In this document: positions 1,479 through 14,706 of the stretch, in pieces
Layout of the letters: each line of letters begins with the position of its first letter
Numbering within the stretch: the stretch's first letter is position 1
Assembly (NCBI GenBank): GCA_026394095.1
Contig: JAPKYY010000116.1
Location: 1 to 14,708 of the forward strand
Length of the DNA: 14,708 bases
Source of the DNA: Acidobacteriota bacterium
GTDB taxonomy: Bacteria > Acidobacteriota > Terriglobia > Bryobacterales > Bryobacteraceae
Reading direction: 5' to 3'
Position numbers and translations under genes: made by a program
Notes under the pieces: model-generated
What the model was told of the DNA's origin: nothing
Databases searched by the model: none
The model's input: only the letters and a program-made list of their open reading frames with translations

Positions 1479-2874
1479 ACAACTCCTCCTCATTTTCGCT
1501 TTGGTTTTCGCCGTGCGACTGACGCACGTAAACCTGCTCTGGATTGAAGAAGCCTACCCGATGACGGCGGCGATTCAGATGTTGCACGGCCGCTGGCCTT
1601 ATCTTGATTTCTGGTTTGACAAGCCTCCGCTTAGCGCCGCGCTTTATCTGCTTTGGGGCGCAATGCCGGGATGGCTTCTGCGGCTTGCCGGGGCGCTTTA
1701 CGTAACGGGATGTGCTGGGCTTGCCTATCGCCTTGGCGGCCGATATGCAGCCTGGTTGATTGCCGTTTACTTGAGCTTTGGAATCCCTTCGGCGGTGATG
1801 GCACTTGCTCCGGATCTCCTGCTGGTGGCTCCGCATCTCGGTGCCGTCTGGATGGCGCAAAGTGGCCGCCCGTTGCTTGCGGGCCTGATTTGCGGGGTTG
1901 GGCTTTTGATCCATACCAAGGCGATTTTCATCCTCGCCATTGCACTGCTTTGGGCCCCGAAGTGGCGTACCCTCGCGGGCTTTGTTGTGACGCTTCCGGT
2001 GCATGCTCTCTTTGGTGCCAACTACTGGCAACAGGTGTGGTGGTGGGGTGGTATCTATTCCAGAGATACGTTCGTTACGAAGCCTGTAGCTGAATTTCTG
2101 CGGCGTACGGCCAACTGGGTTGGCTTTCAGTCTGCTGCCGTCGTTGCGGCTTTGTTGCCCTGGCGCAGTTTGGAGTGGCGTAATTATGCCTGGCTCGGGA
2201 TGTCGCTGGCGAGCGTTGCGATGGGTCTTCGCTTTTTTCCTCGATACTACTTTTTCCTGCTGGTGCCAGTGGTTGTGCTGGCTGGAAGATCGCTCGAGCA
2301 ACTGAAGCCTCGCTGGCGGGTGGCGCTGCTCGCGCTATTGCTCATTCCTGTCGTGCGCTTTGCCCCCCGGAATCTTCAGTTAGCCCTTGGCAACGAGAGC
2401 TGGGACGACCTGGCACTCTTTCACGATAGCCAGACGATTGCAAAGTATTTGAAGGAACAGAGAAAGCCAACGGATACGCTTTTTGTGTGGGGTTATCGCC
2501 CTGATATTGATGCCCTGTCTCGCCTGAAAGGAGGCAGCCCGTATCTTGAGAGCCAGCCTCTTGATTGCATCTTCGCGGATCGACATTTGCGTGAGTTCAA
2601 GGCAATGCCTGGCCTTGGCTGTGAAGACCGGTTGAAGCGCTTTCGCGAAGCCGAGCCCACCTGGATGGTGGATGGGCTTGGGCCATCCAACGTGCGCCTA
2701 CGCCTTGAGGCTTACTATCCGCTTAAAGGCTATGAGCTGGTGTTGCGGACGCAAACCGCTTACCTGTACAAGCTTGTTCTGCCTCAGAACCAGCCGCTCG
2801 ATGTACGCTTAAGGCCTGACGCCGTGGACGTGGTAGGGCACGTAGTAGCGCCGGTCTTCGTCTCGGGTCGTTAG
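1444..2874 (+). CDS. GT-C family membrane glycosyltransferase (GT39/ArnT/PMT-like)
   Basis: Predicted polytopic inner-membrane glycosyltransferase that would use a polyprenyl-phosphate-linked sugar and transfer it to an acceptor on the outer face; substrate and acceptor cannot be told. About eight to ten hydrophobic segments fill residues 13-310. The first extracytoplasmic loop holds WIEEAYPMTAA (33-43), matching the acidic-pair position of PMT/ArnT enzymes, followed by GRWPYLDFWFDKPP (49-62), a usual loop motif of the family. A soluble domain follows (about 311-450). The 476 aa length suits the family. The start ATG lies inside rapZ (35-base overlap), preceded by AAGGTG about 11 bases upstream. 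The natural end appears to be near AYLYKLVLPQ (about 446-455); the final 20-odd residues are encoded opposite the end of the convergent methyltransferase gene and look like read-through tail. Other GT-C subfamilies are possible. Confidence 0.82.
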   Translation: MRFPNPARRVARQLLLIFALVFAVRLTHVNLLWIEEAYPMTAAIQMLHGRWPYLDFWFDKPPLSAALYLLWGAMPGWLLRLAGALYVTGCAGLAYRLGGRYAAWLIAVYLSFGIPSAVMALAPDLLLVAPHLGAVWMAQSGRPLLAGLICGVGLLIHTKAIFILAIALLWAPKWRTLAGFVVTLPVHALFGANYWQQVWWWGGIYSRDTFVTKPVAEFLRRTANWVGFQSAAVVAALLPWRSLEWRNYAWLGMSLASVAMGLRFFPRYYFFLLVPVVVLAGRSLEQLKPRWRVALLALLLIPVVRFAPRNLQLALGNESWDDLALFHDSQTIAKYLKEQRKPTDTLFVWGYRPDIDALSRLKGGSPYLESQPLDCIFADRHLREFKAMPGLGCEDRLKRFREAEPTWMVDGLGPSNVRLRLEAYYPLKGYELVLRTQTAYLYKLVLPQNQPLDVRLRPDAVDVVGHVVAPVFVSGR

Positions 2875-3615
2875 GGCGAAGCCTTGCGCGGTGAGGAAGT
2901 CTCTCACCATGGAGAGAGTTCGAAAGCTTTCGCCTTCGCCACGGTTGGCACGAAAGTCGTGTGCCGAGATGCAGACCTTCTTTGTGCGGCCCAGGGCGGC
3001 TACGCATCCGGGCAACGCAGAACGCTCTGCACCTTCGATGTTCATCTTCAGAAATGAGATCTCGCCGATGCCTTCACGCCGGGCCAACTCATCAAAGGGG
3101 ATTCCTTCGACTGCGCAACTTGTGTCGCTGGCTTCGCCCGAACGCACGTAGTTTGATTCCCAGACCGGCATTGTTTCAATCTGCAAGCTCTCGGGCTGTT
3201 CGGTGGAGGCGTAGTTCAAGAGCCTGACGTTGCTCAGCTCATTCCATTCGCAAAGCTTTCGCAAGGCGAGGAAGCTTGTGGGATGTGGCTCTACTGCCCA
3301 CACCTGGCCAGTGGGCCCGACAGCGCGTGAGAAGACGAAGACGTCCTCTCCACGGCCTGCGCCAATATCGACAATGACATCACCGGCGGCGGGCTTGTAG
3401 AGGTGAAACCAATAATCCTCGACATCACGCAAATACTTGTCGACGATCGCGGCGCGCTTCTGGATATCTTCGGCATTGCGCTGCGGCATTTCAGGATCTG
3501 GAATGCGTACGGAACCAATTCGCCATCCCCAGACTTCATCCCAGAATGCTTCGATGTCCACGTCTGGACAAGTCTCGCGCGCGAGCGCGTTCATCGTATT
3601 CAACAACTCAATCAC
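2809..3615 (-). CDS. FkbM-family SAM-dependent methyltransferase
   Basis: Predicted cytoplasmic class I methyltransferase; FkbM members mostly O-methylate sugar or polyketide hydroxyls, but the substrate here is unknown. Motif I is VDIGAGRGE at residues 82-90, the SAM-ribose acidic residue is probably E109 in AVEPHP, and the FkbM hallmark appears as LKMNIEGAE (189-197), with Asn where many members have Asp. The end YYVPYHVHG is family-like. The start is GTG at 3615, overlapping the previous stop as GTGA; an internal ATG at 3594 (residue 8) is an alternative, and neither has a good Shine-Dalgarno. It is the last gene of the minus-strand operon and overlaps the convergent glycosyltransferase gene by 66 bases. 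It could serve glycan modification with that neighbour rather than the signalling operon; its place in the operon may be passive. Confidence 0.85.
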   Translation of the reverse strand: MIELLNTMNALARETCPDVDIEAFWDEVWGWRIGSVRIPDPEMPQRNAEDIQKRAAIVDKYLRDVEDYWFHLYKPAAGDVIVDIGAGRGEDVFVFSRAVGPTGQVWAVEPHPTSFLALRKLCEWNELSNVRLLNYASTEQPESLQIETMPVWESNYVRSGEASDTSCAVEGIPFDELARREGIGEISFLKMNIEGAERSALPGCVAALGRTKKVCISAHDFRANRGEGESFRTLSMVRDFLTAQGFALTTRDEDRRYYVPYHVHGVRP

Positions 3616-4325
3616 TTATCAATCTTAACTACCCGCACCTCATGAAAGGCCACCGGAGCCTCCTGGCCCTCAGAATTGAGTGCTACGAGCTCGAGGCGGA
3701 TTCTCCCGGCAGGGATTTCTGCGGCTGGTAAGGCTACCTTTAAGGGGGTTGCAGGCCAGCCCTTGCCCTCTCGCACCAGCACCGCTGCGCCGCCTGAATT
3801 CAAGACTCGAAGGCGATAGCCGCTGGCGGGCTCAGCAGCCACTTCGAACTGAAATTCAACTTCGGAGACGTCTTTTGCGATTGTTAACTCAAGGTTTGTG
3901 TTGGTGCCACGGGTGATGTCGCGAGGCAGGGCAAGGCTCACGCGCCGGGCAACCAGAGTTGGCCCGGGCCGCTTCTCGATACCCATCCACCACCAGGCTC
4001 CGCCGCCTACCAGCAAGAGAGCCGCGGCAACTTCTAACCACCAAAGCGCGCGTCTTCGAGGTTTTGACTTTATTGCCATGGCCCTGGCAATACGCAAGCG
4101 ATCCAGTTGACCGGTTTGTTCGAGGAAGGTCTGCCATGCTGCGGCTTCAGCTACGCGTAAGTCTCCGCGAGCGAGGGCGTCGATCTGGTCGCACTCGATC
4201 TCCTGCATAAGTGCGTGCAAATCCGGATCTACGATCAGCGCTTCGGCCAGCGCCGCCCGTTCTTCATCGCTGCCTTTGCCCAGCAGATAAGCTTCAATCT
4301 CGGCTCTTGAATAATCGTGCTTCAA
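3612..4325 (-). CDS. Single-span anti-sigma-factor-like membrane protein
   Basis: Probably the partner and inhibitor of the sigma factor encoded immediately upstream, by position and architecture. Residues 1-88 are cytoplasmic, acidic and helical (for example SDEERAALAEALIVDPDLHA, 19-38), like anti-sigma N-termini, but there is no HxxxCxxC zinc motif, so it is not a classic ZAS protein. A membrane span lies at about 94-114 (LWWLEVAAALLLVGGGAWWW). Residues 120-237 form an extracytoplasmic beta-rich, possibly Ig-like domain. Translation starts at TTG (4325), overlapping the sigma stop as TTGA; the next in-frame Met is residue 40, too late to keep the N-terminal helices. The stop overlaps the methyltransferase start (GTGA). 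Alternative: an exported-domain sensor with no sigma role. The family assignment is inference from context. Confidence 0.62.
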   Translation of the reverse strand: MKHDYSRAEIEAYLLGKGSDEERAALAEALIVDPDLHALMQEIECDQIDALARGDLRVAEAAAWQTFLEQTGQLDRLRIARAMAIKSKPRRRALWWLEVAAALLLVGGGAWWWMGIEKRPGPTLVARRVSLALPRDITRGTNTNLELTIAKDVSEVEFQFEVAAEPASGYRLRVLNSGGAAVLVREGKGWPATPLKVALPAAEIPAGRIRLELVALNSEGQEAPVAFHEVRVVKIDK

Positions 4326-4894
4326 AATTTAGTGTCCTGAACCGGCAAATCATCACGCAATTTTCCCAGGCAACGCCTCACGCACTCCTCCAGCCGCTCA
4401 CGAATTCGCAAGGCGCGATTCCGTAGGGCGTTGATCTCAAGACCGAGCTCTTCGGCGATTTCGCGTCGCACGACGATGTGGGCACTCCCGCTGCCGGCGT
4501 AATAGCGCAGGATGAGGCGAGCCTGATCTGGCCCGAGTTTTGCGAGGCAGCCTTCGAGGCAGGCTAGCGCATCGGGGTCTACTGGTGGATCCCGATCGGG
4601 AAGAACCATCTTCTTGAGGGCCAATTCGCGGCGTTGGGACCGGGTTATAGATTCTCGCATCAAGACCCGCGCGACGCCGGCGGCAAAGCGCTCTACTCCT
4701 TCGACTTCTTCACCCTCGGCTAATATTCTCGCTACTCGATTTAGAACCTCGTCTGCCTGATCTTCAGGCTCTGAGCTGCGCTCCCACCGAAAGTATCGAA
4801 TGAGCCTTTGGCGTAGCTCTTCATAGAGGAGAGCCGCCGTGTCTTTGTCTCGATTCAGCCTGGAGAGCAGAGCCTCGAACTGAGCCTTCTCCAT
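4322..4894 (-). CDS. ECF-type RNA polymerase sigma factor
   Basis: Predicted alternative sigma factor that would direct core RNA polymerase to stress or envelope promoters. In the 190-aa form, residues 14-85 fit region 2 (LIRYFRWERSSEPEDQADEV) and residues 116-175 fit region 4, with a helix-turn-helix at about 143-168 (RREIAEELGLEINALRNRAL) after a region 4 lead-in LGPDQARLILRYYAG. It lacks regions 1.1 and 3, as ECF sigmas do. ATG at 4894, two bases after the CHAT gene stop, is chosen: AAGGAG lies 13 bases upstream. A TTG at 4933 would add only 13 arginine-rich residues encoded within the CHAT gene end. It overlaps the downstream anti-sigma-like gene by 4 bases (TTGA). The region 2 sequence is divergent, so the subgroup cannot be named. 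It sits inside the operon rather than leading it. Confidence 0.8.
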   Translation of the reverse strand: MEKAQFEALLSRLNRDKDTAALLYEELRQRLIRYFRWERSSEPEDQADEVLNRVARILAEGEEVEGVERFAAGVARVLMRESITRSQRRELALKKMVLPDRDPPVDPDALACLEGCLAKLGPDQARLILRYYAGSGSAHIVVRREIAEELGLEINALRNRALRIRERLEECVRRCLGKLRDDLPVQDTKF

Positions 4895-4896
4895 TG

Positions 4897-7557
4897 CTAG
4901 CGCCAATCTCCTTCGAGGCGGAAGCCGGCCCAATAGTAAGGATCCTTCCAGCGCGCATCTGCACGCAGTGCGAGTTGCGCCTGTCGTAATGCAGCGGCGG
5001 CAGTGAGCCTGCCGCGCAATAGGCGTTCATAGAATCGACGCATCAACTCGGCAGTTGCGCGGTCTTCCACCTCCCACTGAGTGGCCAGAACCCTGGCTGC
5101 GCCGGCATAGAGAAAGCCGCGGGTGAGGCTCATGGTGCCTTCGCCGCTCAGGTCAGGACCAAGTGCAGTACTGCAGCCGCTCAAGACTACCAACTCTGCG
5201 GCCAGCTTTAGTCGATAGATCTCGTAGAGACGCAGGTGGCCATTGCGGGGGCGTCCTCGGGCGTCTACCTGAGAGAACAAGACGGCCGACAATTCCGGCC
5301 GAATCTCGTCCACCTGAGCGTGGGTTGCCAGATGCACGATCATCGCCTCACGGAATGTCTTCTGATCGAGCAGTGATTTCTCTGCAAGCAGACCGCTCCA
5401 TTGCTTTGCAGTGCCAACGCCCGCAATCTTTGCAATTTCACTCGACTCAATTCTTGAAAAATGGAGACGCCGGTATTCGCTTTGGTTGTTGCTGGCGAGG
5501 GAATCATCACTTTTTTGCAAGCGGGAGTCTGCTGCATCGAAGACCGGGTCTGCTACTATTTGCAGGCTGCGTCTACCTGTCCACTTTGGCCTCTCGCGCA
5601 GGGCGACGAGCATCGAAGCTGAAGGTATGTCGATAACTTCAAGCCGATCGAGCAAGTTGCCAATTGCGGCAAAACTTAAGTGATCGAGCGGTGCATCCGG
5701 CACAATGACGAGTCTTGAGATGGAAGTGCCCAAGCCGAGGGGAGTGATCAAGAGCCGTGTGAGTTCCTGATCCAAATTCGTATCGCGGGTTTTGGCTGCG
5801 ATCGCTGCGCGCTGCTTCCTGACCAGCGCTGCAATTGAGGCTCGCGCGGATAACTTTACAGCTCGTACGCCTGCGGTGGTGACTACCCAGGCCCAGCCCC
5901 GATCCTGATCGAGCGAATACTCAACCAGTGCTGTCCGCCCGTCGAGAACCTCGCGCTGCACGCGCTCGATAGATGGTCTGGCCTCGACCCCAACTAACAC
6001 CTGCCTCTCATTTGTCAATTGGCTCCAGCGTTCGAAGAGGCGATCGAGGTTGCGCCGGGCCTCGGCCGATTCGGCCCCTGGTTTTGCTGCGCTTAAGCGC
6101 TGCAGTCGCTGAGCCTGGGCATGGATGTCCCGGGTTAGCTCGCGCTCGCGAAGCAAAATGCTCTGATCTTCCGGAAGTGCTTCTCTCGCTGCAAGAACCC
6201 TGTCGAGCAATACCCGGGCTCGGCTTCTTTCGCTTAGTTCTAAAGCTTCTTGCGTCTTGCCGAGATCCATCAGCACGGCGATGGCATCTTTGTAGACTCG
6301 CTGCTGGGTGGCAAAGAACGTTGAACGCAACTCTACGCTTACAACAGAGGCGCGCAGCCCCTCAATTTGCTTGAGGGCAGAATCGAGTGATGCTTTGGCT
6401 TCCTCCAACTTGCCCAAGCTCAAAAGAGATCTTGACCGGATTGCTTCGGCTGAGGCCTCACCGAGTTTGTTGCCCACTGTATGTTGTAATTCCACAGCTG
6501 ACACAGCAGTGGCAAGAGCGTCGTTGCTACGTCGGGCCTTCAGATAAGCTTCGGCCAGCTTCTCCAGTGTCTGCGCTTCACCATAACGATCTCCCAGGTC
6601 GCGCTTGATTGCCAGCGACTCTTCAAAGAGTGCAAAGGATCCATCGAGGCCAGCCAGATTGTGGAGGACATAAGCCTGACCGCGCTTGTCGCCCTTCTCG
6701 CGCAGAACCTTGAGCGCTCGTTCGAAAGAAGCTCTGCCGGCTGTGCCCTCAACCATGCCGAGGTTGCTTAGTGTGTAGGCCTCACCGATCCCGTCGCCAG
6801 CCTTCTGCCACAGCGCGAGCGCCTCAGCATAGTGCAGGCGGGCCTTGCGTGTGTCCCCCAAGAGAGAGTACATGAGCCCGATGCCATTCAATGAATCTGC
6901 TTCTCCACGCGGATTCTTGAGCTTTCTCCAAATCGCCAGCGCCTGTTCATATTCGTGCAAGGCCTTTTCTGCATCGCCCCAGGTGTACTGCACACTGGCC
7001 ATTCCGAAGAGTGTGTAGGCAAGGCCTGTTTCGTCTTTGAGTTCGCGCCGGATGGCGAGGGCTTCCTGATATGCGCTCAAGGCTTCTACGTTCAGCCCTA
7101 AGGACCAATAGGCAGCGCCCATGTTGTGCAAGGCGAGGGCCTGCTCAAAACGCTCACCTGTATTGCGTCGCAGCGATAGTGCTTTCTGGTAGCTGGCGAT
7201 TCCTTCTGTCGCCTGCCCCATGGCTACCAGAACCCGGGCTGTGCCGTAATGCAGGCTTGCTTCTAGCTTTGCTTCTGCTGCAATAGCGAGGCCCAGCTGG
7301 AACTCTGCAAGTGCCTTCTCTCGCTGGCCGCTGAGGTCCAGCAACTGCCCGAGGCGCAACCTGACTTTTGCTTCTTCGCCCGACCCTTTCCACATTTCGG
7401 CAACTCGCTCGTAAAGCGCGATTGCATCTTTGCGGGTTTTCGCATCCAGGCGCAGCTTCTCTGCCTGTGCGTATAAATCGGCAGCACTGTCCTGAGCGAG
7501 CGCGAGCCCGGCGAAGAGTGGCAGTATAAGGAGCCAATGGCAGCGTCGAAGCTCCAT
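4897..7557 (-). CDS. Exported TPR-CHAT protein (caspase-like peptidase fold)
   Basis: An 886-aa protein with a signal peptide (MELRRCHWLLILPLFAGLALAQDS, cleavage probably after ALA), about nine TPR-type repeats (roughly 25-410), a helical linker (about 410-590) and a C-terminal CHAT domain. CHAT domains belong to the caspase/separase clan and are cysteine peptidases when the dyad is intact. Here both residues are present: His746 in VHLATHAQVD and Cys795 in LSGCSTALG. Export through Sec is predicted, so the enzyme would act outside the cytoplasm, or be anchored if the signal is not cleaved. The start at 7557 begins exactly at the signal peptide; a GTG at 7602 would add 15 residues and overlap the kinase gene. 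The gene follows the kinase by 19 bases and precedes the sigma gene by 2. Two repeats in the middle are shortened. Substrate unknown. Confidence 0.88.
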   Translation of the reverse strand: MELRRCHWLLILPLFAGLALAQDSAADLYAQAEKLRLDAKTRKDAIALYERVAEMWKGSGEEAKVRLRLGQLLDLSGQREKALAEFQLGLAIAAEAKLEASLHYGTARVLVAMGQATEGIASYQKALSLRRNTGERFEQALALHNMGAAYWSLGLNVEALSAYQEALAIRRELKDETGLAYTLFGMASVQYTWGDAEKALHEYEQALAIWRKLKNPRGEADSLNGIGLMYSLLGDTRKARLHYAEALALWQKAGDGIGEAYTLSNLGMVEGTAGRASFERALKVLREKGDKRGQAYVLHNLAGLDGSFALFEESLAIKRDLGDRYGEAQTLEKLAEAYLKARRSNDALATAVSAVELQHTVGNKLGEASAEAIRSRSLLSLGKLEEAKASLDSALKQIEGLRASVVSVELRSTFFATQQRVYKDAIAVLMDLGKTQEALELSERSRARVLLDRVLAAREALPEDQSILLRERELTRDIHAQAQRLQRLSAAKPGAESAEARRNLDRLFERWSQLTNERQVLVGVEARPSIERVQREVLDGRTALVEYSLDQDRGWAWVVTTAGVRAVKLSARASIAALVRKQRAAIAAKTRDTNLDQELTRLLITPLGLGTSISRLVIVPDAPLDHLSFAAIGNLLDRLEVIDIPSASMLVALRERPKWTGRRSLQIVADPVFDAADSRLQKSDDSLASNNQSEYRRLHFSRIESSEIAKIAGVGTAKQWSGLLAEKSLLDQKTFREAMIVHLATHAQVDEIRPELSAVLFSQVDARGRPRNGHLRLYEIYRLKLAAELVVLSGCSTALGPDLSGEGTMSLTRGFLYAGAARVLATQWEVEDRATAELMRRFYERLLRGRLTAAAALRQAQLALRADARWKDPYYWAGFRLEGDWR
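4908..4913 (-). promoter_or_regulatory. Shine-Dalgarno of the sigma factor gene
   Basis: On the minus strand this reads AAGGAG, 13 bases before ATG 4894. The site is inside the end of the CHAT gene. The spacing is rather long, but it supports the 4894 start over the upstream TTG at 4933. Confidence 0.5.
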
Positions 7558-7560
7558 GAG

Positions 7561-7564
7561 CCTC
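7561..7564 (-). promoter_or_regulatory. Short-spaced ribosome binding site of the CHAT gene
   Basis: The minus strand reads GAGGCTCATG here: GAGG only 3 bases before ATG 7557, in the 19-base gap after the kinase stop. The short spacing suggests modest or coupled initiation. It supports the ATG that opens the signal peptide. Confidence 0.35.
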
Positions 7565-7576
7565 AGTATAGGACCC

Positions 7577-9802
7577 CTAGCGCATGAGTTGCTGGATCGC
7601 ACTCACGATTCGGTCTGGACTCTCTCTGGCTACAAAGTTAAAGTTACGGCCTGACTTCAACTTCACATGGAATGCCTTCATGTTGCGAACCGGCATCCGG
7701 TTCATCTTGATCTCATCAATGTCCGAGAAGGGTGCCTCAAAGCTGTCGCCTGCGTATCGCGTGTCGTAGCGCAGCGACTTGCCTACGACGCGCAAAACGC
7801 CTTCGCAATGATTCCAAACTTTGTCATAGGGGTTGAAACCCGTCAAGCCCTGGTGATCGTGCATAACAGGCCAGGCGTAGCGGCTCAGGACAGGATTCGG
7901 GTTTGGGTTGGGAATCTCAGACCGCTTCGCCACTACTTCAACCATTGCCGTCGCCGTTACTGTTTTGCCACCGGCATCGATGGCAGTGAGTACATAGCGG
8001 GAAGTCATTCTTGGGGATACTCGCGCTTCGCCTGTTAAAGCAACCGTGCCGGGCTCGGGTGCGATCGAAACCCGGGCCGCACCGCTGACGGACCAATTTA
8101 GAGTTGTTGAAGCGCCCTCTTCAATGCGGCTCGATTGCGGCTGGAATGAGTTCACCTGCATGGCAGCTGGAATAGGGTCTGACTTTCGAGTGGGTTTGTC
8201 GGTCTTGGTTACGGTTCGCGGCTCCACGCTGAGCAAGACTTGCGACTGCTGCTTTATGCCGTCAGGGCCAACCGCTTCGAGGGTGAAGCTTGTTGATTGA
8301 TCGGGCCGCAATTCCTGACTCCCGTTTGCCTGGACTGGCTGCCCATTGAGTTTCACGTCTGAGCCGTTCTGGACTTCCCAGGCGAGCAAGGCCAGATCGC
8401 CGGCTGTGACCCGATCTGGCTTCAGCTCGAGTCGAAGGATTCTTGCGGAGGCTGGTGAAACCACACTCACGTCCAGCTTCTGACGAATTGCTTCCCCTCG
8501 TTTTGGCCTTGCAACCAGCGTGTAGCTGATGCTGTCATTCGGCAGGACAGTTGTGGTGCCCTTGGCGGCCTGTTTTCCGAGGCCTTCAATTTCGATGCTG
8601 TCTGCACCTGAAACGTCCCAGCTTAAAGCCACTTTGCCGCCACGGGTGACACTTTGAGGCTCGGCGCGGAAGGCGTTCACGACTGGAGGCGCGCCTGGCC
8701 TCAGATAAAACCAGAAACCAATTACGAGCGCGACCAAAGCAAAAGCCCCGATGGCGAGCCAGGGCAATTTTGGTGGCACTGGAAGAGGAGGGGGAAGAGG
8801 AGCGGGTTTGGGCAATGGTACTGTCGCAGGCACGGACTTTCCCTGAAAGGCTTGTTCCATCGAGAGCATGTCGGGGAAGCGATCTTCGACCCGCAGTGCC
8901 AGGCCTTGCATGAGTGCCGCTTCTGCGTGGGCCGGCATGGGGATGCCAAGTTCTGTTGGACGCACGAGCGAGTCGGCCTTGAAACGATCGGGGGCGGCGG
9001 CGGGCATCACCCCGGTGATTGTGCGGTAAAGCGTTGCCGCCGTGGCATAGACGTCGGTCCAGGGGCCTTGTTGGCCTTTGCTCTCATACTGTTCAAAGGG
9101 TGCATAGCCATGTTTCAAGATGACTGAGAGGTTCAGGCTCTTTTGCCCCATCGCCTGGCGGGCTGCACCAAAATCAATGACTTTCACATGGCCGCTTCGA
9201 ACCAGGAAAATGTTGTCCGGGCTGATGTCGCGATGCAGGACTCCCGCTGCATGAACTTCGCGCATTGCATCCATTACCCACATCAGGCAGTTCACAGCGC
9301 TCTGCCAATCGATTTTGCCGCCTTGCTGTTCGATGAACTTCTCAAGCGTCATGCCGTCGAGAAACTCGAGAATCATGTAGGCGGTATCGTGCTCTGAAAA
9401 GAAGTCCTCCACGCGTACGATGTTTGGATGGTCTTTGAACTTTCGCACGAGCCGGGCTTCATCGAGAAAACGCTCAAGACCGAAGAGATAATCCTGCTTA
9501 TAACTGGCCGATGCTGGAAAGACGCTCGGTTCGCCTCGCATTCTTACGGCCATGCCAGAAGGGAAATACTCTTTGATTGCGACCTTGGAATCGAGAACGA
9601 GATCGCGGCCAAGATAGGTGATCCCGAAGCCTCCGTCGCCCAGGACCCGGCCCACTAGGTAGCGTTCTTTGAGTACGATGCCTGGAGTGAGATGGAGCAG
9701 CGAATCGACTTCTTTGCCTGAGACATAACCGCAATGGGGACACACTGGCATGTCTTTGCTTAGTTCCATGCAACCCAGACAATATTGCTGTGAGTTTTCC
9801 AT
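7577..9802 (-). CDS. Membrane Ser/Thr protein kinase with zinc ribbon, Ig-like repeats and PH-like C-terminus
   Basis: A 741-aa Hanks-type kinase, probable writer of the operon's phospho-circuit. An N-terminal zinc ribbon has C8-C11 and C21-C24. The kinase domain (about 47-315) has G-loop GDGGFG 55-60, catalytic Lys77 in VAIKEYFP, HRD 190-192 with Asn197, DFG 210-212 and the APE-like APFE 234-237, so all catalytic residues are present. A proline-rich linker (328-346) leads to a membrane span (about 347-367). Outside follow three Ig-like repeats (about 373-447, 454-527, 547-625), a PNPNPNP hinge (631-637), and a final domain (641-741) resembling bacterial PH/GRAM-like folds. ATG 9802 is chosen because GGAGG lies 11 bases upstream and the zinc ribbon starts there; the frame stays open 139 codons further upstream, but that stretch is the phosphatase gene in another frame. 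The gene starts 5 bases after the phosphatase stop. Confidence 0.93.
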   Translation of the reverse strand: MENSQQYCLGCMELSKDMPVCPHCGYVSGKEVDSLLHLTPGIVLKERYLVGRVLGDGGFGITYLGRDLVLDSKVAIKEYFPSGMAVRMRGEPSVFPASASYKQDYLFGLERFLDEARLVRKFKDHPNIVRVEDFFSEHDTAYMILEFLDGMTLEKFIEQQGGKIDWQSAVNCLMWVMDAMREVHAAGVLHRDISPDNIFLVRSGHVKVIDFGAARQAMGQKSLNLSVILKHGYAPFEQYESKGQQGPWTDVYATAATLYRTITGVMPAAAPDRFKADSLVRPTELGIPMPAHAEAALMQGLALRVEDRFPDMLSMEQAFQGKSVPATVPLPKPAPLPPPLPVPPKLPWLAIGAFALVALVIGFWFYLRPGAPPVVNAFRAEPQSVTRGGKVALSWDVSGADSIEIEGLGKQAAKGTTTVLPNDSISYTLVARPKRGEAIRQKLDVSVVSPASARILRLELKPDRVTAGDLALLAWEVQNGSDVKLNGQPVQANGSQELRPDQSTSFTLEAVGPDGIKQQSQVLLSVEPRTVTKTDKPTRKSDPIPAAMQVNSFQPQSSRIEEGASTTLNWSVSGAARVSIAPEPGTVALTGEARVSPRMTSRYVLTAIDAGGKTVTATAMVEVVAKRSEIPNPNPNPVLSRYAWPVMHDHQGLTGFNPYDKVWNHCEGVLRVVGKSLRYDTRYAGDSFEAPFSDIDEIKMNRMPVRNMKAFHVKLKSGRNFNFVARESPDRIVSAIQQLMR

Positions 9803-9807
9803 AAGCT

Positions 9808-10521
9808 TTAAGTCCTCCACACCGCGATCGCCGAGTAGTTGTCTGCCTGGCCAGCGTCGATTTTCACGAATCGTTCCATCAGTCTCACCTGCATGCCTTG
9901 CAACCAATCCTGAACAGTGGCCGCCCTGACTAGTTCGGCTTCCATCTCGCGTTCGGTAACCAGTTCCCAAAAGCCGTCGCTGGCTAGCAGAAAGGCATCG
10001 CCAGGTTCGAGGTCGCGCCATCCCGGGCCCATTTCGATTTCTGCCGATGCTCCGCCCAGGCTTTTGAGAATGCGGTTGCGGTCTGGATGTCTTCTGATCT
10101 CGGCGGGTGTGATCTTTCCAGTGAGTACAAGCATTTGCGGCACGCTGTGATCGAGCGTGTGTTCGATCAGTGCGCCACGCTGAAATCGATAGAGTCTGGA
10201 ATCGCCGCTGTGCATCCACTTTGCCCGATTGCCGTCTGAGACAAGCAGAACGAGAGTGCTTCGCATTGATGCTGATTGCGGGTATGCCTTCTGGGCTTGC
10301 TTGATTGCATCCTGGGCGGCGGTAGCCATTGTCAAAAGGTCTTCAGACAAAGTGCTGGAGATCGCATGGATTGCAGCGGCCGAAGCAAGCTCGCCGCCAC
10401 CCATGCCACCGAGGCCGTCGGCAAGAGCCCAACCGAAGCAGCCGGCTGTTGAACCGCTCCAGACTGCGTCCTGGTTGACTTCTCGCCCGCCCCGATCAGA
10501 CACTTGAGCTGTTGCAAACAT
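9808..10521 (-). CDS. Soluble PP2C-family Ser/Thr phosphatase
   Basis: A 237-aa single-domain PPM/PP2C metal-dependent phosphatase, presumably removing phosphates placed by the kinase encoded directly downstream. Motifs in order: RGGREVNQDA with Asp18; ADGLGGMGGGE with Asp35/Gly36 for the metal pair; HSGDSRLYRF with GDS 106-108; LASDGFWE with Asp182; and ADNYSA with Asp227. All the usual metal-ligand positions are filled. No signal peptide or membrane span, so cytoplasmic. It starts 3 bases after the stop of the protease-FHA gene, with AGGAGA about 10 bases upstream of the ATG. It is shorter than the other PP2C of the operon and lacks its membrane anchor, so the two probably act at different sites. 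Confidence 0.94.
   Translation of the reverse strand: MFATAQVSDRGGREVNQDAVWSGSTAGCFGWALADGLGGMGGGELASAAAIHAISSTLSEDLLTMATAAQDAIKQAQKAYPQSASMRSTLVLLVSDGNRAKWMHSGDSRLYRFQRGALIEHTLDHSVPQMLVLTGKITPAEIRRHPDRNRILKSLGGASAEIEMGPGWRDLEPGDAFLLASDGFWELVTEREMEAELVRAATVQDWLQGMQVRLMERFVKIDAGQADNYSAIAVWRT
9814..9818 (-). promoter_or_regulatory. Shine-Dalgarno fixing the kinase start
   Basis: The minus strand reads GGAGG, 11 bases before ATG 9802 and overlapping the last codons of the phosphatase gene. It supports the 741-residue kinase over a form extended by 139 codons. Confidence 0.55.
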
Positions 10522-10524
10522 GCG

Positions 10525-11703
10525 CTAGTGGTCTCCTGCAATCTCGAACTGGTTTGCAGTCGAGGCCAGATAGAAGCGATCTCCCACCTTTAATTCGACT
10601 GCCGCGCCAGGCCTGAGTGCCTTGCCGCTGGAAAGAAAGGTGCCGTTGCTTGAGCCCAGATCTTCGAGGGTCAGCTTCCCGGTTGCCTGATCCTGACGGA
10701 GTTGACAGTGACGTTTTGAGATCTCGGTTATGTTGTCTGGATATACGAGCTGCGCAGCGCTATGATCTCTGCCCAGCACAAGCGTGATGCCCTCAAGCCC
10801 GATATCTTGCCCGGCATAAAAGCCGGTGATTCCCCGGAGCTTTGCTTTGGCTGGCAAGGCTGGCGCAGGCTCTGGCGGGAGTGCGCCACGGCGCCTGTGA
10901 AAGCCCCTCGTTAAGGACAGCGCCAGCAAACCCGCCAACAAGCCGATCAGCCAGCCTGGAAAGCTGGAACTCGTTGTGGCCACCGGTGCAGCACCACACT
11001 TGTCACTGACGACATCTGCCCCGATCTTGAGGGCCTTCAACTCGTCGAGGAGCTCCTGGCTTTCAATGGCAAAGTTGATTCCGTCTGCGAGTGGGACGCG
11101 TTCTTCGCGGCCGTCTGCTGTCACCACCTTTACCAATGCTTTGCGCGAGTTGATTCCGATGACCCGCCCGCAATCATCAAAGAGCGGCCCGCCAGAGTTG
11201 CCGGGGTTGGCAGCGGCAGTTGTTTGCATAAAGCGAGTGGGCTCGCTGTTGCCCTGCTTTGCGCTGGTAAAGAATTTACTGATTACACCCTGAGTGATGG
11301 TGGGAATCTGAATCGAATCCTGCCCACTCATTCTGCCTGCCGCACCCGGATAGCCGATGGCCCAAACAGCCTGACCGTCGCGCAATACCTGGCGTGTGGA
11401 AAACTTTACTTTCTCGCCGGCCAGCGGTTTCTGCATTTCAAGAACGGCGAGATCTTTTCCTTCGTTCTTCCACAAGACTTTGGCTTCGCTTGTCTGGCGC
11501 TTCTCATTCATGACGAGGATTTTGCTTTCGCCGCGCATGCAACAGACGTGCCAGTTTGTTGCTACAAGGCGATCTCCGATGAGGAAGCCGCTTCCAGCGG
11601 ACTTCTCGAGCAGGATCAGCATTGTGCTGCCCTTCATCTGCTCCATCGGGGGCTCGGCGGCGAGACCGAATGCGAGGCCAAGGCCCAGCCAAACAATTCT
11701 CAT
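10525..11703 (-). CDS. Exported trypsin-like protease fused through a membrane span to a cytoplasmic FHA domain
   Basis: A 392-aa protein with unusual two-sided architecture. A short signal or anchor sequence (1-16, ending GLAA) is followed by an S1/DegP-like protease domain (about 25-228): His52 in TNWHV, Asp84 in KDLAVLEM, Ser170 in NPGNSGGPLFD, so the triad is complete. No PDZ domain follows. A membrane span lies at about 249-266 (PGWLIGLLAGLLALSL), then a basic stop-transfer RRR and a proline-rich linker (275-286), then an FHA domain (about 306-387) with GRD 311-313, SKRH 329-332 and SSNGTF 351-356, the phosphothreonine-binding residues. The protease would be outside and the phospho-reader inside. 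ATG overlaps the upstream phosphatase stop (ATGA), with GAGGGAG just upstream. It could transmit phosphorylation state outward or cleavage state inward. Confidence 0.92.
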   Translation of the reverse strand: MRIVWLGLGLAFGLAAEPPMEQMKGSTMLILLEKSAGSGFLIGDRLVATNWHVCCMRGESKILVMNEKRQTSEAKVLWKNEGKDLAVLEMQKPLAGEKVKFSTRQVLRDGQAVWAIGYPGAAGRMSGQDSIQIPTITQGVISKFFTSAKQGNSEPTRFMQTTAAANPGNSGGPLFDDCGRVIGINSRKALVKVVTADGREERVPLADGINFAIESQELLDELKALKIGADVVSDKCGAAPVATTSSSFPGWLIGLLAGLLALSLTRGFHRRRGALPPEPAPALPAKAKLRGITGFYAGQDIGLEGITLVLGRDHSAAQLVYPDNITEISKRHCQLRQDQATGKLTLEDLGSSNGTFLSSGKALRPGAAVELKVGDRFYLASTANQFEIAGDH

Positions 11704-12662
11704 GGCTCCCTCAGTTCATTTACTGGCGGCAATTTGGAGTTATCAAATCGCTCCTTGCCAGGGGCAGTGCTGGGGGCGCTGACCGTTACAGGTTTCTTTT
11801 CTCTCTCTCCGGCCCAGTAGGCTGCGGCGACTCCGGATAACAGCAATACCACTACCGCTGCCCATTGGCCCCATTTGCGCTGAGGAGCAATGATTACGGG
11901 CTCGATAAACTCACGCACGTGCGCTGGTTCGAGCATCAAGATCGTAATGTTGTCCTGGCCTGGAGCACAAGCGGCGAGTGCGGCTTGCATCAATTGCTCG
12001 CAATAATCCTGCGGGTCTCCATTGCGCTGGTGGAAATTGGCCGGAGCTATTGTCTTAAACAACCCATCACTGGCCAGCAGCAGCCCATCGGTTTCCTTTA
12101 TTGGCATGGGCCGCAAGTTGCGGTCTACCAATTGCAGGTTCGCCATGCCGAGATAACTTGTGAGGGACTCTCGTTGCGGGTCTGCCAGTGCCACCTCAAG
12201 GCTTAACTCTCCGGCTAGTACACGCGCGTCCAGATCGAGTGAATAGACATGAGGCCGGTTGATTTGGGTTAATTCGTTGCCACGCACATGGTAAAGCGCA
12301 CTGTCTCCAACCGAGATCCAGTAAAGCGATGCTTCGTGCAGGACTGCAGCTACGAGGGTTGTGCCCAGTTGGGCTTGCGCGGCAAGTTCAAGCACTCTCT
12401 GCTGGGCTGCAATCAAAGCTCTAGCCAGCGCCTGAGGAATTTCTTCTTCAGCGCTCTTGGTGAGGTAGGTGTCGATAAACACTTTCACTGCTGCGCGGCT
12501 TGCCAGTTCGCCTCGCTCCAGGCCGCCCATGCCATCAGCCAGAACTGCGAGAAAGCCACCGTGAACGCAAAACGCGGGGTTCTCAGGGTCTGAGAAGCCA
12601 AAGGCGTCCTGTTGAGCCTCTCGCTGGCCGATGTCCTGGGCATTACCGAATGCGTATTTCAT
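11700..12662 (-). CDS. Membrane-anchored PP2C-family Ser/Thr phosphatase
   Basis: A 320-aa phosphatase with the PP2C domain at residues 1-248: Asp19 in EAQQDA, Asp43/Gly44 in LADGMGGLERGE, GTT 100-102, VGDSALYHV with Asp120, LASDGLFK with Asp199, and GQDNITI with Asp237. The metal ligands are all present. A membrane span follows at about 265-284 (WGQWAAVVVLLLSGVAAAYW), with a tail of about 35 residues outside, so the catalytic domain is cytoplasmic and tethered to the membrane. It overlaps the FHA gene upstream and the protease-FHA gene downstream, both as ATGA, giving tight translational coupling. As the second phosphatase in the operon it probably works on membrane-bound targets such as the kinase or the channel proteins; that is inference. 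Confidence 0.93.
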   Translation of the reverse strand: MKYAFGNAQDIGQREAQQDAFGFSDPENPAFCVHGGFLAVLADGMGGLERGELASRAAVKVFIDTYLTKSAEEEIPQALARALIAAQQRVLELAAQAQLGTTLVAAVLHEASLYWISVGDSALYHVRGNELTQINRPHVYSLDLDARVLAGELSLEVALADPQRESLTSYLGMANLQLVDRNLRPMPIKETDGLLLASDGLFKTIAPANFHQRNGDPQDYCEQLMQAALAACAPGQDNITILMLEPAHVREFIEPVIIAPQRKWGQWAAVVVLLLSGVAAAYWAGEREKKPVTVSAPSTAPGKERFDNSKLPPVNELREP

Positions 12663-13207
12663 GAGTCCCAGCGAAATTGCTCCGTGACAAAGGGTACGAG
12701 GACCAACTTGCTTTTACCGACTTCGATCTGGTCGCTGGCTTTCAGTTCCATTGCCGCATGGACGACATCGCCATTGCAGTAAACCAAGCCGCTTGACTCT
12801 CCTGGAGCCAGCCAAAAACTGCCCCGCTTCGGCTCAAAGGTAAGCACTGCATGTTTGTCGCGCGAAACAGTTTCGTCGCCCGTGATGCTAATGTCCATTG
12901 CAGGTGAGCGGCCGATGAAATTCTTGGCTGCGTGGATGCGAAAGTCTTGCCCGCGGTCGGGGCCTTCGGTGCAGACGAGCCAGCCGACGACGGGTTCTAC
13001 TTTTCCGCCACCACGCATGAGCGGTACTGTTTTGCCACCAACGGGTATTGCTGGTGGAGGTGCGAGTGCAGCGGCGGGTTCAGCGCGCAATGGAGTAGTC
13101 TTGCCTCCCGGGATGATCGGGGCTGCCATCTCAACAGGCTTTGGGCACCAGGGGCAAGCGTGGTGCTTGGCCGGGTCGTAAAAATGTCCTTCTGTGCAGC
13201 GAATCAT
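12659..13207 (-). CDS. Zinc-ribbon FHA-domain protein
   Basis: A 182-aa cytoplasmic phosphothreonine reader. The N-terminus has a small zinc-binding motif, C4, H8, C18, C21 (CTEGHFYDPAKHHACPWC). A low-complexity linker (23-70) carries two copies of GGKTxPL (34-40 and 58-63), possible phosphorylation sites. The FHA domain follows (about 74-176), with PVVGWLVCTEGPDRG, FIGRSP 97-102, SRDKHA 115-120 and YCNG 143-146 standing for the GR, SxxH and N positions. I recall the same layout, including a KT-containing linker and the VVGWLVC entry, in FHA proteins of Firmicutes encoded beside PP2C and kinase genes; this is from memory, not a search. A good AAGGAG lies 7 bases before the ATG. The gene overlaps both neighbours by ATGA. 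Confidence 0.92.
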   Translation of the reverse strand: MIRCTEGHFYDPAKHHACPWCPKPVEMAAPIIPGGKTTPLRAEPAAALAPPPAIPVGGKTVPLMRGGGKVEPVVGWLVCTEGPDRGQDFRIHAAKNFIGRSPAMDISITGDETVSRDKHAVLTFEPKRGSFWLAPGESSGLVYCNGDVVHAAMELKASDQIEVGKSKLVLVPFVTEQFRWDS

Positions 13208-14016
13208 TGACCCGCTCCTTTCTCATCTCTTCTTCCAAAAGCCTCTAACTGTTTGGCATAGCTGGCCTTGTATTCCGGTGCGGCCTCAAACGTCATCTTG
13301 TGGTTTTTGTCTGTTATCAGCGTCCCCACCCAGGCTGCTGAATGTTCTTTTTCAATCGTTGCGTTGGGAAGCAAGGTGAGCTTGTCGTCGGAGAGAAAGT
13401 AACCTCCAACGTTGACCGGGCCTGCGTTACCGTTGCTGCTGAAGTATTTGTAGTAGACCTTTACCTCGCCATTTACAACCGTGTCTCGTTGCAGCCAGAT
13501 CTCGGTTGCAGGGCCACCGGAATAGTCGCTGAGACATTCCCCCTGAAAACTGGTGCCTTGCTTTTTGTTTACGTCCATTCGCGGTGAGCGTTGGCCGTTG
13601 GCACCCCCGTAATTGGCTGGCTCCAGGAAGAGATCTATATCCTGCGGCCCATTCCATTTCATAGATACAGCCACCGGGTTGCGCATCTCCAGCTTTTCAA
13701 TCACTTTGTCTGCCGCTTTTAACTCCTGCTGGGCCTTGTTCAGATCTCCCTGTTGCTGCTGGAGGCGTTGTTCGAGTTGCTCGACTTGTTGCAATACCCG
13801 CTTGCCATCGACACTCTCACTCAGCTTCTTTTTGAGCTCTTTCATCTCCTGCTCAATTGCAAGTTTGTTTTTCTCAAGGTCTTCTGCATTTGCCCCCGTC
13901 GGACGCCAATAGGGGAAGAGCACCAGTGTCATGAAACAGAAGACTCCCAGTGCTCCGCACAGGATGTCGAGCAAGGACATGTTGAAGATGTTGATTTCCC
14001 GGTTTCTTGCTTTCAT
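13204..14016 (-). CDS. TolR/ExbD/MotB-like single-span protein with coiled coil and DUF2135-like domain
   Basis: A 270-aa protein, likely partner of the channel subunit encoded just upstream. Residues 1-12 are cytoplasmic; a membrane span (about 14-36) opens FNMSLLDILCGALG, and Asp17 sits where ExbD, TolR and MotB carry the proton-binding Asp. A coiled coil rich in Gln and Lys (about 45-112) is followed by a periplasmic beta-rich domain (about 115-247). Its QDIDLFLEP entry, repeated Gly/Asn turns and VKVYYKYFSSN resemble DUF2135, a domain often found with VWA proteins; this match is by eye and tentative. There is no OmpA-like peptidoglycan-binding domain and no usual ExbD C-terminal fold. AGGGA lies 8 bases before the ATG. 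Gap of 3 bases to the upstream gene, ATGA overlap with the downstream one. Confidence 0.78.
   Translation of the reverse strand: MKARNREINIFNMSLLDILCGALGVFCFMTLVLFPYWRPTGANAEDLEKNKLAIEQEMKELKKKLSESVDGKRVLQQVEQLEQRLQQQQGDLNKAQQELKAADKVIEKLEMRNPVAVSMKWNGPQDIDLFLEPANYGGANGQRSPRMDVNKKQGTSFQGECLSDYSGGPATEIWLQRDTVVNGEVKVYYKYFSSNGNAGPVNVGGYFLSDDKLTLLPNATIEKEHSAAWVGTLITDKNHKMTFEAAPEYKASYAKQLEAFGRRDEKGAGQ
13215..13220 (-). promoter_or_regulatory. Strong Shine-Dalgarno of the zinc-ribbon FHA gene
   Basis: The minus strand reads AAGGAG, 7 bases before ATG 13207, within the last codons of the upstream gene. It is the best-spaced ribosome site among the overlapping junctions and suggests this reader is made at relatively high level. 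Confidence 0.6.
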
Positions 14017-14019
14017 GGC

Positions 14020-14706
14020 CTAGTTCCCTACGTAGAGCCTGTTGATCAGATTGCGCAGTGTGTAATCACCTGCCAGATTCACGGCCCGTTCTTCCTGCTC
14101 TTGCACCAGTTGGAGGATGAAAACCAACAGAGCGCTTTGGGCCAGTGCCACCATCGTGCAATCGAAGCCTACGGCCAAGGTCTTAGCCATTTCCTTCAGG
14201 TCGAGCGCCTTGCCAGGGTCGCCTGCTGCGGCCAGGGAGGCGCCAAGGCCAAAGACGGTGCCGATGAATCCCAGGGTTGGAACGAGCCAGGCAACGAATC
14301 GGACCATGCCGTATTGAAGATCTACACGATGGGCTAGCAATTCGAGGCTGCTGGTTAATACTCCTGAGGCCTGCTCTACGGAGCGGCTCGATTGAAACTG
14401 CAGGATCGCCAGATTGATGAGCGAGGCTACGAAGCCGCTATCGCGGTCAAATTGGCCCATTACACGCCGCCGGATGGGGCCGAGATCTTTGGGTGTGAGA
14501 ACTGTTTGCTCGTCTTCGGGTAGAAAGCCTGCATGCAGCAGGGCCTCTTCGCGCGCCCCCGCCCGCCAGCGGACAAAGAGCTCTCCCAGGCCGAGGAAGA
14601 AAACAACGTGCATGATGTTTTGAATCGTCAGCGGGTATGGGAAATGCAGGGATGGCCGGTCAAAGAGCAGGACACTCGCACGCCCTTCCGGTAAGAGGCT
14701 GCCCAT
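14020..14706 (-). CDS. MotA/TolQ/ExbB-family proton channel protein (5' end may be incomplete)
   Basis: Inner-membrane channel or stator subunit, expected to form a pentamer around a dimer of the next gene's product. The visible 228 aa have spans at about 29-46, 136-160 and 177-201. The family core is VRFVAWLVPTLGFIGTVFGL (135-154) followed by LAVGFDCTMVALAQSALLVF (177-196), the usual two conserved helices with the Pro-x-x-Gly-x-x-Gly-Thr pattern and a Thr-containing helix facing the ion path. A cytoplasmic stretch (about 47-130) separates the first span from these. The ATG at 14706 is only two bases from the window edge, so a longer N-terminus cannot be excluded and no ribosome site can be judged. 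It is the first visible gene of the minus-strand operon; the promoter and perhaps further genes lie outside. Confidence 0.86.
   Translation of the reverse strand: MGSLLPEGRASVLLFDRPSLHFPYPLTIQNIMHVVFFLGLGELFVRWRAGAREEALLHAGFLPEDEQTVLTPKDLGPIRRRVMGQFDRDSGFVASLINLAILQFQSSRSVEQASGVLTSSLELLAHRVDLQYGMVRFVAWLVPTLGFIGTVFGLGASLAAAGDPGKALDLKEMAKTLAVGFDCTMVALAQSALLVFILQLVQEQEERAVNLAGDYTLRNLINRLYVGN

Follow-up and report, generated by a model that had tools for sequence, protein, structure and literature searches.

Eleven closely packed genes in an Acidobacteriota bacterium raise the question of whether a proton-channel pair, a Ser/Thr kinase, two phosphatases, FHA-domain proteins, proteases and a sigma/anti-sigma pair belong to one machine, and what such a machine would do. 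The genes lie on contig JAPKYY010000116.1 (our C117) of assembly GCA_026394095.1 (family Bryobacteraceae), and the window analysed here, 14,708 nucleotides, is that entire contig (positions 1–14708); the source assembly is fragmented (1077 contigs, 88.88% complete). Eleven consecutive open reading frames (ORFs) occupy positions 2809–14706 of the minus strand, from g1 at the 14706 end to g11 at the 2809 end. On a slight balance of confidence, we read the core of this block, comprising a small FHA/zinc-ribbon gene that lies off the contig, g1–g4, usually g5 and g6, and g7, as a candidate envelope motor that would be driven by protons and controlled by Ser/Thr phosphorylation. The core is probably one machine, because it recurs in distant bacteria.

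Adjacent genes overlap by 4 bases at g2/g3, g3/g4, g4/g5, g9/g10 and g10/g11, and are separated by 3 bases at g1/g2, 3 at g5/g6 and 5 at g6/g7; internal ATG starts for g8 (7557) and g9 (4894) leave gaps of 19 and 2 bases, respectively, before these genes. ORF calls and a check of the starts bear out the eleven minus-strand genes, with their coordinates, 4-base overlaps and 2–19-base gaps, that had been described in an initial annotation made from the sequence, and Pfam agrees with its domain calls for MotA_ExbB (g1), FHA (g3, g5), PP2C_2 (g4, g6), Trypsin_2 (g5), Pkinase (g7), CHAT plus TPR (g8) and FkbM methyltransferase (g11). Sigma-70-like promoters in the block were at chance level (4 on both strands together, compared to a mean of 4.1 in shuffled sequences). 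Since the window is the whole contig, g1 is open at its 5' end, and the FHA gene that relatives keep directly upstream of g1 lies outside it.

Conservation of the core among related loci

To compare loci, g2 was aligned with 24 homologues, 29 loci were drawn from the genome collection, and their ORFs were searched with profiles built from related loci; a stretch of a Rhizobium megaplasmid, five from a single Acidobacteriota genus (f47/g73), one from a second such genus (G246), and others were added. Counts refer to 32 loci in which the MotA-like A subunit (encoded by g1 in the window) scored above 200 bits, with genes scored within 9.5 kb of it. The counts exclude the window, three loci without an A subunit above that score (L015, L029 and L030), the distant A homologues of L058 and L075, L027 (which contains L026 letter for letter), L055 (from the genus of L053, L054, L056 and L057), L072 (identical to L003), the CHAT loci of the window's own genome, and short duplicate stretches. 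Within this distance, the B subunit was present in 30 loci, PP2C and a g3-type FHA protein in 29 each, the FHA-ribbon gene that precedes A in 27, the kinase in 23, the protease-FHA gene in 19 and CHAT in 3, with some absences representing contig ends (e.g. L003, L005, L011). For each of these genes except CHAT, every locus holding it had at least one copy on the strand of the A subunit, with the exception of the g3 type (28 of 29). As delimited by these profile matches, the core is composed of an FHA-ribbon protein, a MotA-like A subunit, a MotB/ExbD-like B subunit, a ribbon-FHA protein, PP2C and the kinase, and the protease-FHA gene, found in 19 of the 32 loci, is a common extra. The distant A homologues in L058 and L075 (about 94 bits) had no FHA, PP2C, kinase or protease relative in 12–14 kb, and L058 had a 20-bit B-like match nearby but nothing more of B.

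The initial annotation had made its reading depend on gene order being kept beyond close relatives, and the synteny search revealed that the core order is conserved in many Acidobacteriota and in Binatota; the proton-channel pair and the kinase/phosphatase/FHA circuit that it had proposed form one conserved unit across the related loci. In Binatota (L023–L027) the order is FHA-ribbon gene, A, two consecutive B genes, ribbon-FHA, PP2C and kinase, without the protease or the second phosphatase. The core is rearranged in other Acidobacteriota (L053–L057 and L073, where the genes stay together in a changed order), in Gammaproteobacteria and on the Rhizobium megaplasmid (L044), where the set is divided over two diverging strands. 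A 1610-aa ORF with no Pfam match lies inside the Rhizobium cluster (L044:16120–20952). L010, L012 and L020 have a second kinase following, and a VWA-FHA protein between g3 and g4, which was recognized by Pfam in L010 and by 78% and 74% identity to the L010 protein in L012 and L020. The gammaproteobacterial locus L028 combines four kinases and a VWA protein with two B subunits, one bearing a VWA head and the other what looks by eye like a sandwich head, and L029 and L074 are two contigs of one Gammaproteobacterium that share out the parts between them.

The motor pair and the phosphorylation genes

The A subunit, g1 (14020–14706, minus strand, like all genes of the block), belongs to the MotA/TolQ/ExbB family (Pfam MotA_ExbB 1.2e-9, 38.5 bits against a cut-off of 22.9), and is only distantly related to solved MotA/PomA structures (E 0.03–0.7). 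Its 5' end is lost at the contig edge, leaving 228 aa compared to 277 aa in the L002 orthologue, to which it is 94% identical over 228 columns, and 252–288 aa in 13 orthologues measured. The protein stops shortly past its last helix. The threonine of a loop, LPEDxxT(V/M)L, is kept in 30 of 31 pattern-matched sequences; among full-length A subunits missed by the pattern, L073 holds the threonine, and in L044 it is one residue off.

The B subunit, g2 (13204–14016), has one transmembrane helix with Asp17 (motif NREINIFNMSLLDILCGALG), a coiled coil, and a predicted periplasmic beta-sandwich like that of YfaP/DUF2135 and perhaps TerD. The helix spans residues 8–36 in the structure model (hydrophobic stretch 15–33), and Asp17 is invariant in three overlapping alignments of 25, 14 and 19 sequences. 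The initial annotation had called g2 TolR-like, for which the N-terminal helix with its aspartate and a weak PADLOC match of the N-terminus to ZorB (ZorB1, E 0.0042) speak, and no Pfam family was matched (E up to 0.01). PF09906 (DUF2135/YfaP) also went unmatched at E up to 0.1, with kinship to this family suggested only by a profile comparison. The relatives L028, L029 and L057 have B subunits that are helix-VWA fusions; the periplasmic head is exchangeable, a YfaP/TerD-like sandwich here and VWA elsewhere, with the motor aspartate retained. In L023, L026 and L028, a single A subunit is accompanied by two B subunits, unlike or duplicated, as might be expected if a 5:2 motor contained a heterodimeric B pair.

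The motor half belongs to a superfamily that is already known, and an independent prediction for VWA-headed relatives supports it: in PMC12204202 (Mol Biol Evol 2025), the helix of a VWA family is predicted to take the place of ExbD in a pentamer of TolQ type, frequently in unlike pairs. In these TPH-vWA motors a TolQ-like gene stands beside single-helix, VWA-headed B-like proteins with a pore aspartate, and the unlike pairs resemble those of L028. However, the head there is VWA, whereas g2 has the YfaP/TerD-like sandwich, is not a helix-VWA fusion, and has no Pfam match to VWA. Similarly, the window pair shares the A-subunit family and the B helix with aspartate with ExbBD, TolQR and MotAB, but forms its own sequence family, has no OmpA-like domain, and is linked to kinase, PP2C and FHA genes.

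The first of these linked genes, g3 (12659–13207; Pfam FHA 4.7e-7), encodes a zinc ribbon (CxxGHFYDxxxHxxCPxC), a linker with conserved Thr motifs and an FHA domain. It resembles the OdhI/GarA switches, with Thr motifs N-terminal to FHA and a match to the OdhI model, but the match is below the family cut-off (29.1 of 200 bits), the zinc ribbon is an addition, and phosphorylation of g3 is putative. In L002 and L003, which are the closest relatives, and in most of the other loci, the A-subunit gene is immediately preceded by a small gene whose product joins an FHA domain (Pfam 2.1e-12 in L002) to a zinc ribbon at its C-terminus. A search of the rest of the window's genome did not recover this gene, and for this reason we infer that it was probably lost here in an assembly gap. 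L004 (14106–14666) and L006 (14055–14621) carry an additional short ORF of the FHA type between g5 and g6.

Both phosphatases have intact catalytic motifs: g4 (11700–12662; Pfam PP2C_2 2e-13), which ends in a C-terminal hydrophobic helix (267–285), keeps them here and in 24 relatives, including one truncated sequence, and the soluble g6 (9808–10521; Pfam PP2C_2 9.4e-9) in the window and 15 relatives. Between them, g5 (10525–11703; Pfam Trypsin_2 4.5e-26, FHA 4.3e-12) is a trypsin/HtrA-like protease (His52, Asp84, Ser170) with a transmembrane helix and an FHA domain; its N-terminus is signal-like by eye and its helix is followed by RGFHRRRG, so the FHA domain would lie on the cytoplasmic side of the membrane. 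The triad is intact in 13 of the 16 sequences that contain the region. It is lost in L016, L018 and L019, as if it had gone together with the downstream kinase, which all three lack. L073 likewise lacks a kinase, and a pattern for the usual protease motifs matched neither of its two g5-like ORFs. In L056, an ORF between kinase and PP2C (8280–8996) matches a papain-like C70 peptidase (1.8e-7), which suggests an exchange at the protease position. The TagH model, tried on g5 for the type VI secretion PpkA/PppA/Fha module, scored 23.2 of 120.25 bits, and g5 was not assigned to it.

The kinase, g7 (7577–9802; Pfam Pkinase), is a zinc-ribbon Ser/Thr kinase with a transmembrane helix; outer repeats that look Ig-like by eye and a C-terminal domain of PH/PTB fold complete the protein. 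The kinases and phosphatases of related loci retain their catalytic residues. TerY-P triads have the same kind of zinc-ribbon kinase, PP2C and VWA set. The GAP1-N2 systems (PMC7159879) share the zinc-ribbon kinase and PP2C, together with a VWA-FHA protein (as in L010, L012 and L020) or VWA protein (as in L028), but no proton-channel pair is mentioned in the available part of that paper. At the level of sequence, an A subunit of MotA/ExbB class occurs together across phyla with a B subunit bearing a pore aspartate and an exchangeable head, and with kinase, PP2C and FHA proteins whose motifs are intact.

Several points weigh against a motor controlled by these genes. The A-B pair stands alone in L007 and L021, where about 20 kb were examined; L016, L018 and L019 have no kinase within 9.5 kb besides their lost triads, and L073 has neither a kinase within that distance nor a protease at threshold. 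The A subunit of L028 lacks the loop threonine. The g3 linker Thr motif, present in 24 of 25 sequences compared to 1.0 expected in shuffled linkers, speaks for such a motor, but this expectation overstates independence because the orthologues are related. The motor's proton conduction and A5B2 assembly are predictions, as are its phosphosites, FHA partners and topology. The solitary pairs would fit a mechanical, secretion or gliding apparatus with a constitutive motor (VWA transducers are suggested for gliding in the available part of PMC12204202), in which the neighbouring kinase genes would have a different target and sit in the operon for co-expression only. We consider this unlikely, since many loci keep the genes on one strand, in one order and with tight junctions, and even where they are reordered, as in Rhizobium, a further Acidobacteriota genus and a Gammaproteobacterium, they stay side by side.

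Distribution, defence and the downstream genes

The distribution of the system is patchy. Relatives of the A subunit, with the query's own genome included in all counts, occurred in 2 of 8 genomes of the window's genus, 3 of 41 relatives and 7 of 396 genomes of the phylum, one of which (G246) has a distant homologue without the other genes; g2 relatives occurred in 5 of 297 genomes. In the phylum of L028, the only A-subunit relative among 299 genomes, and the only match to the VWA-type B profile among 398, was in the genome of L028 itself. The Idiomarina family named in PMC12204202 is called widespread in Proteobacteria there, unlike this single match to the VWA-type profile, and may therefore be another branch. 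In the g1 tree, which has long branches and a midpoint root, Binatota are nested inside Acidobacteriota (supports 97/92 and 95/91), which fits transfer between phyla; L025 and L026 are labelled Binatota in the tree although their records say Proteobacteria, Deltaproteobacteria, and L026 is contained in L027 (record: Binataceae).

Such patchiness and nesting, together with a MotA/MotB-class pair, could indicate Zorya-style anti-phage defence, in which the stator senses an envelope attack and triggers an effector. Some of 87 ORFs flanking the related loci strongly match defence families (GajA, GajB, MkoB, a type II methyltransferase and RmrA, one member each, among the 25 of 42 families listed). 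The resemblance to ZorAB extends to the stator class and the weak ZorB1 match, but the window's A subunit differs in ending shortly after its last helix. The peptidoglycan-binding domain expected of ZorB was not found in g2, with its sandwich head and no Pfam family, and the matches that PADLOC listed for ten of the window proteins (in the case of g7, 25 of 34 families) included no ZorC, ZorD or ZorE. By Pfam, the window proteins include no nuclease family, and no g1 relative was found in phage records or viral contigs. Thus, the comparison with defence in the initial annotation draws support from the patchiness and a few flanking genes, and loses it in the lack of carriage by phages; we regard a defence role as improbable.

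Downstream of the kinase, g8 (4897–7557; Pfam CHAT 1.1e-55) is a TPR-CHAT protease (His746 and Cys795, numbered on the 886-aa form) whose N-terminus, judged by eye, resembles a signal sequence; against the type III-E CRISPR TPR-CHAT family Csx29 it scored 15.4 of 300 bits, and it was not assigned to that family. The pair annotated as sigma and anti-sigma factors matches NCBIfam models, but below their curated cut-offs: g9 (4322–4894), an ECF-type sigma factor, matches TIGR02989 at 1.2e-11 (44.8 of 124.55 bits; Pfam 20.9 of 25.7 bits), and g10 (3612–4325), a probable anti-sigma factor, matches NF052375 at 1.9e-6 (28 of 100 bits), with a hydrophobic stretch seen by eye under the helix-prediction threshold. 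A g10 paralogue in the same gene order occurs in L076, from the same genome. The last gene, g11 (2809–3615), encodes an FkbM methyltransferase (Pfam 4.5e-12).

The initial annotation had proposed that all eleven genes may form one machine, with the CHAT protease and sigma factor as built-in executors. Tight spacing through g11 is consistent with this, as are the g8-g9-g10 tail of L002, the closest relative, where CHAT, sigma and anti-sigma genes follow the kinase, and the CHAT and sigma genes of L006, after which the available sequence ends. However, CHAT was near the core in only three loci, in one of them (L009) on the opposite strand, and a sigma gene followed it only in L002 and L006. The window's genome holds eight CHAT genes, and one of these, at C285, is followed by its own sigma and anti-sigma relatives, away from the core. 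No g11 relative was found in related loci, the sequences of L002 and L006 ending before its expected place, and we found no evidence beyond position that g11 belongs to the cluster. We therefore give little credence to an eleven-gene machine. With these genes next to the core in only two other loci, and a free paralogous trio in the same genome, g8–g10 appear to be a cassette that can be separated from the core and became attached to it in this lineage. The plus-strand genes of the window, encoding a ribosome hibernation factor, RapZ and a membrane protein without a Pfam family, are ordinary neighbours.

A proposed phosphorylation-controlled motor

In the phosphorylation-controlled motor that we favour, the kinase ectodomain and/or the head of the B subunit would sense an envelope ligand or stress, and the kinase would phosphorylate the linker threonines of g3 and perhaps also the conserved A-subunit loop LPEDxxT(V/M)L. 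The phosphorylated sites could then be bound by FHA proteins, which would switch an A5B2 motor on or off, with proton flow moving the periplasmic heads and PP2C resetting the switch. The transmembrane protease may be gated via its cytoplasmic FHA domain, and in the Bryobacter-like lineage the CHAT protease/sigma/anti-sigma genes may have been added downstream as a further, transcriptional output.

As far as we searched, the wiring of such a motor to kinase, PP2C and FHA proteins is undescribed. Our literature search returned no paper linking VWA-headed stators to kinases, and none on the present motor with a kinase/PP2C/FHA gene set; the words kinase and phosphatase are absent from the main text of PMC12204202. 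We tentatively propose, with rather less than even confidence, that these loci represent a new class of trans-envelope machine, in which FHA-read Ser/Thr phosphorylation would gate a proton-driven stator with swapped VWA or YfaP/TerD-like sensor or grip heads, along with phospho-gated periplasmic proteolysis. The known control of flagellar, Ton and Tol stators acts through assembly, ligands or partner proteins. If our reading is true, a stator family genetically wired to a kinase, phosphatases and phosphothreonine readers of its own would represent a new control of a proton-driven motor, and the core would supply a testable set of partners for the VWA-headed motors, which, in the available part of PMC12204202, were predicted in 2025 without a known function.

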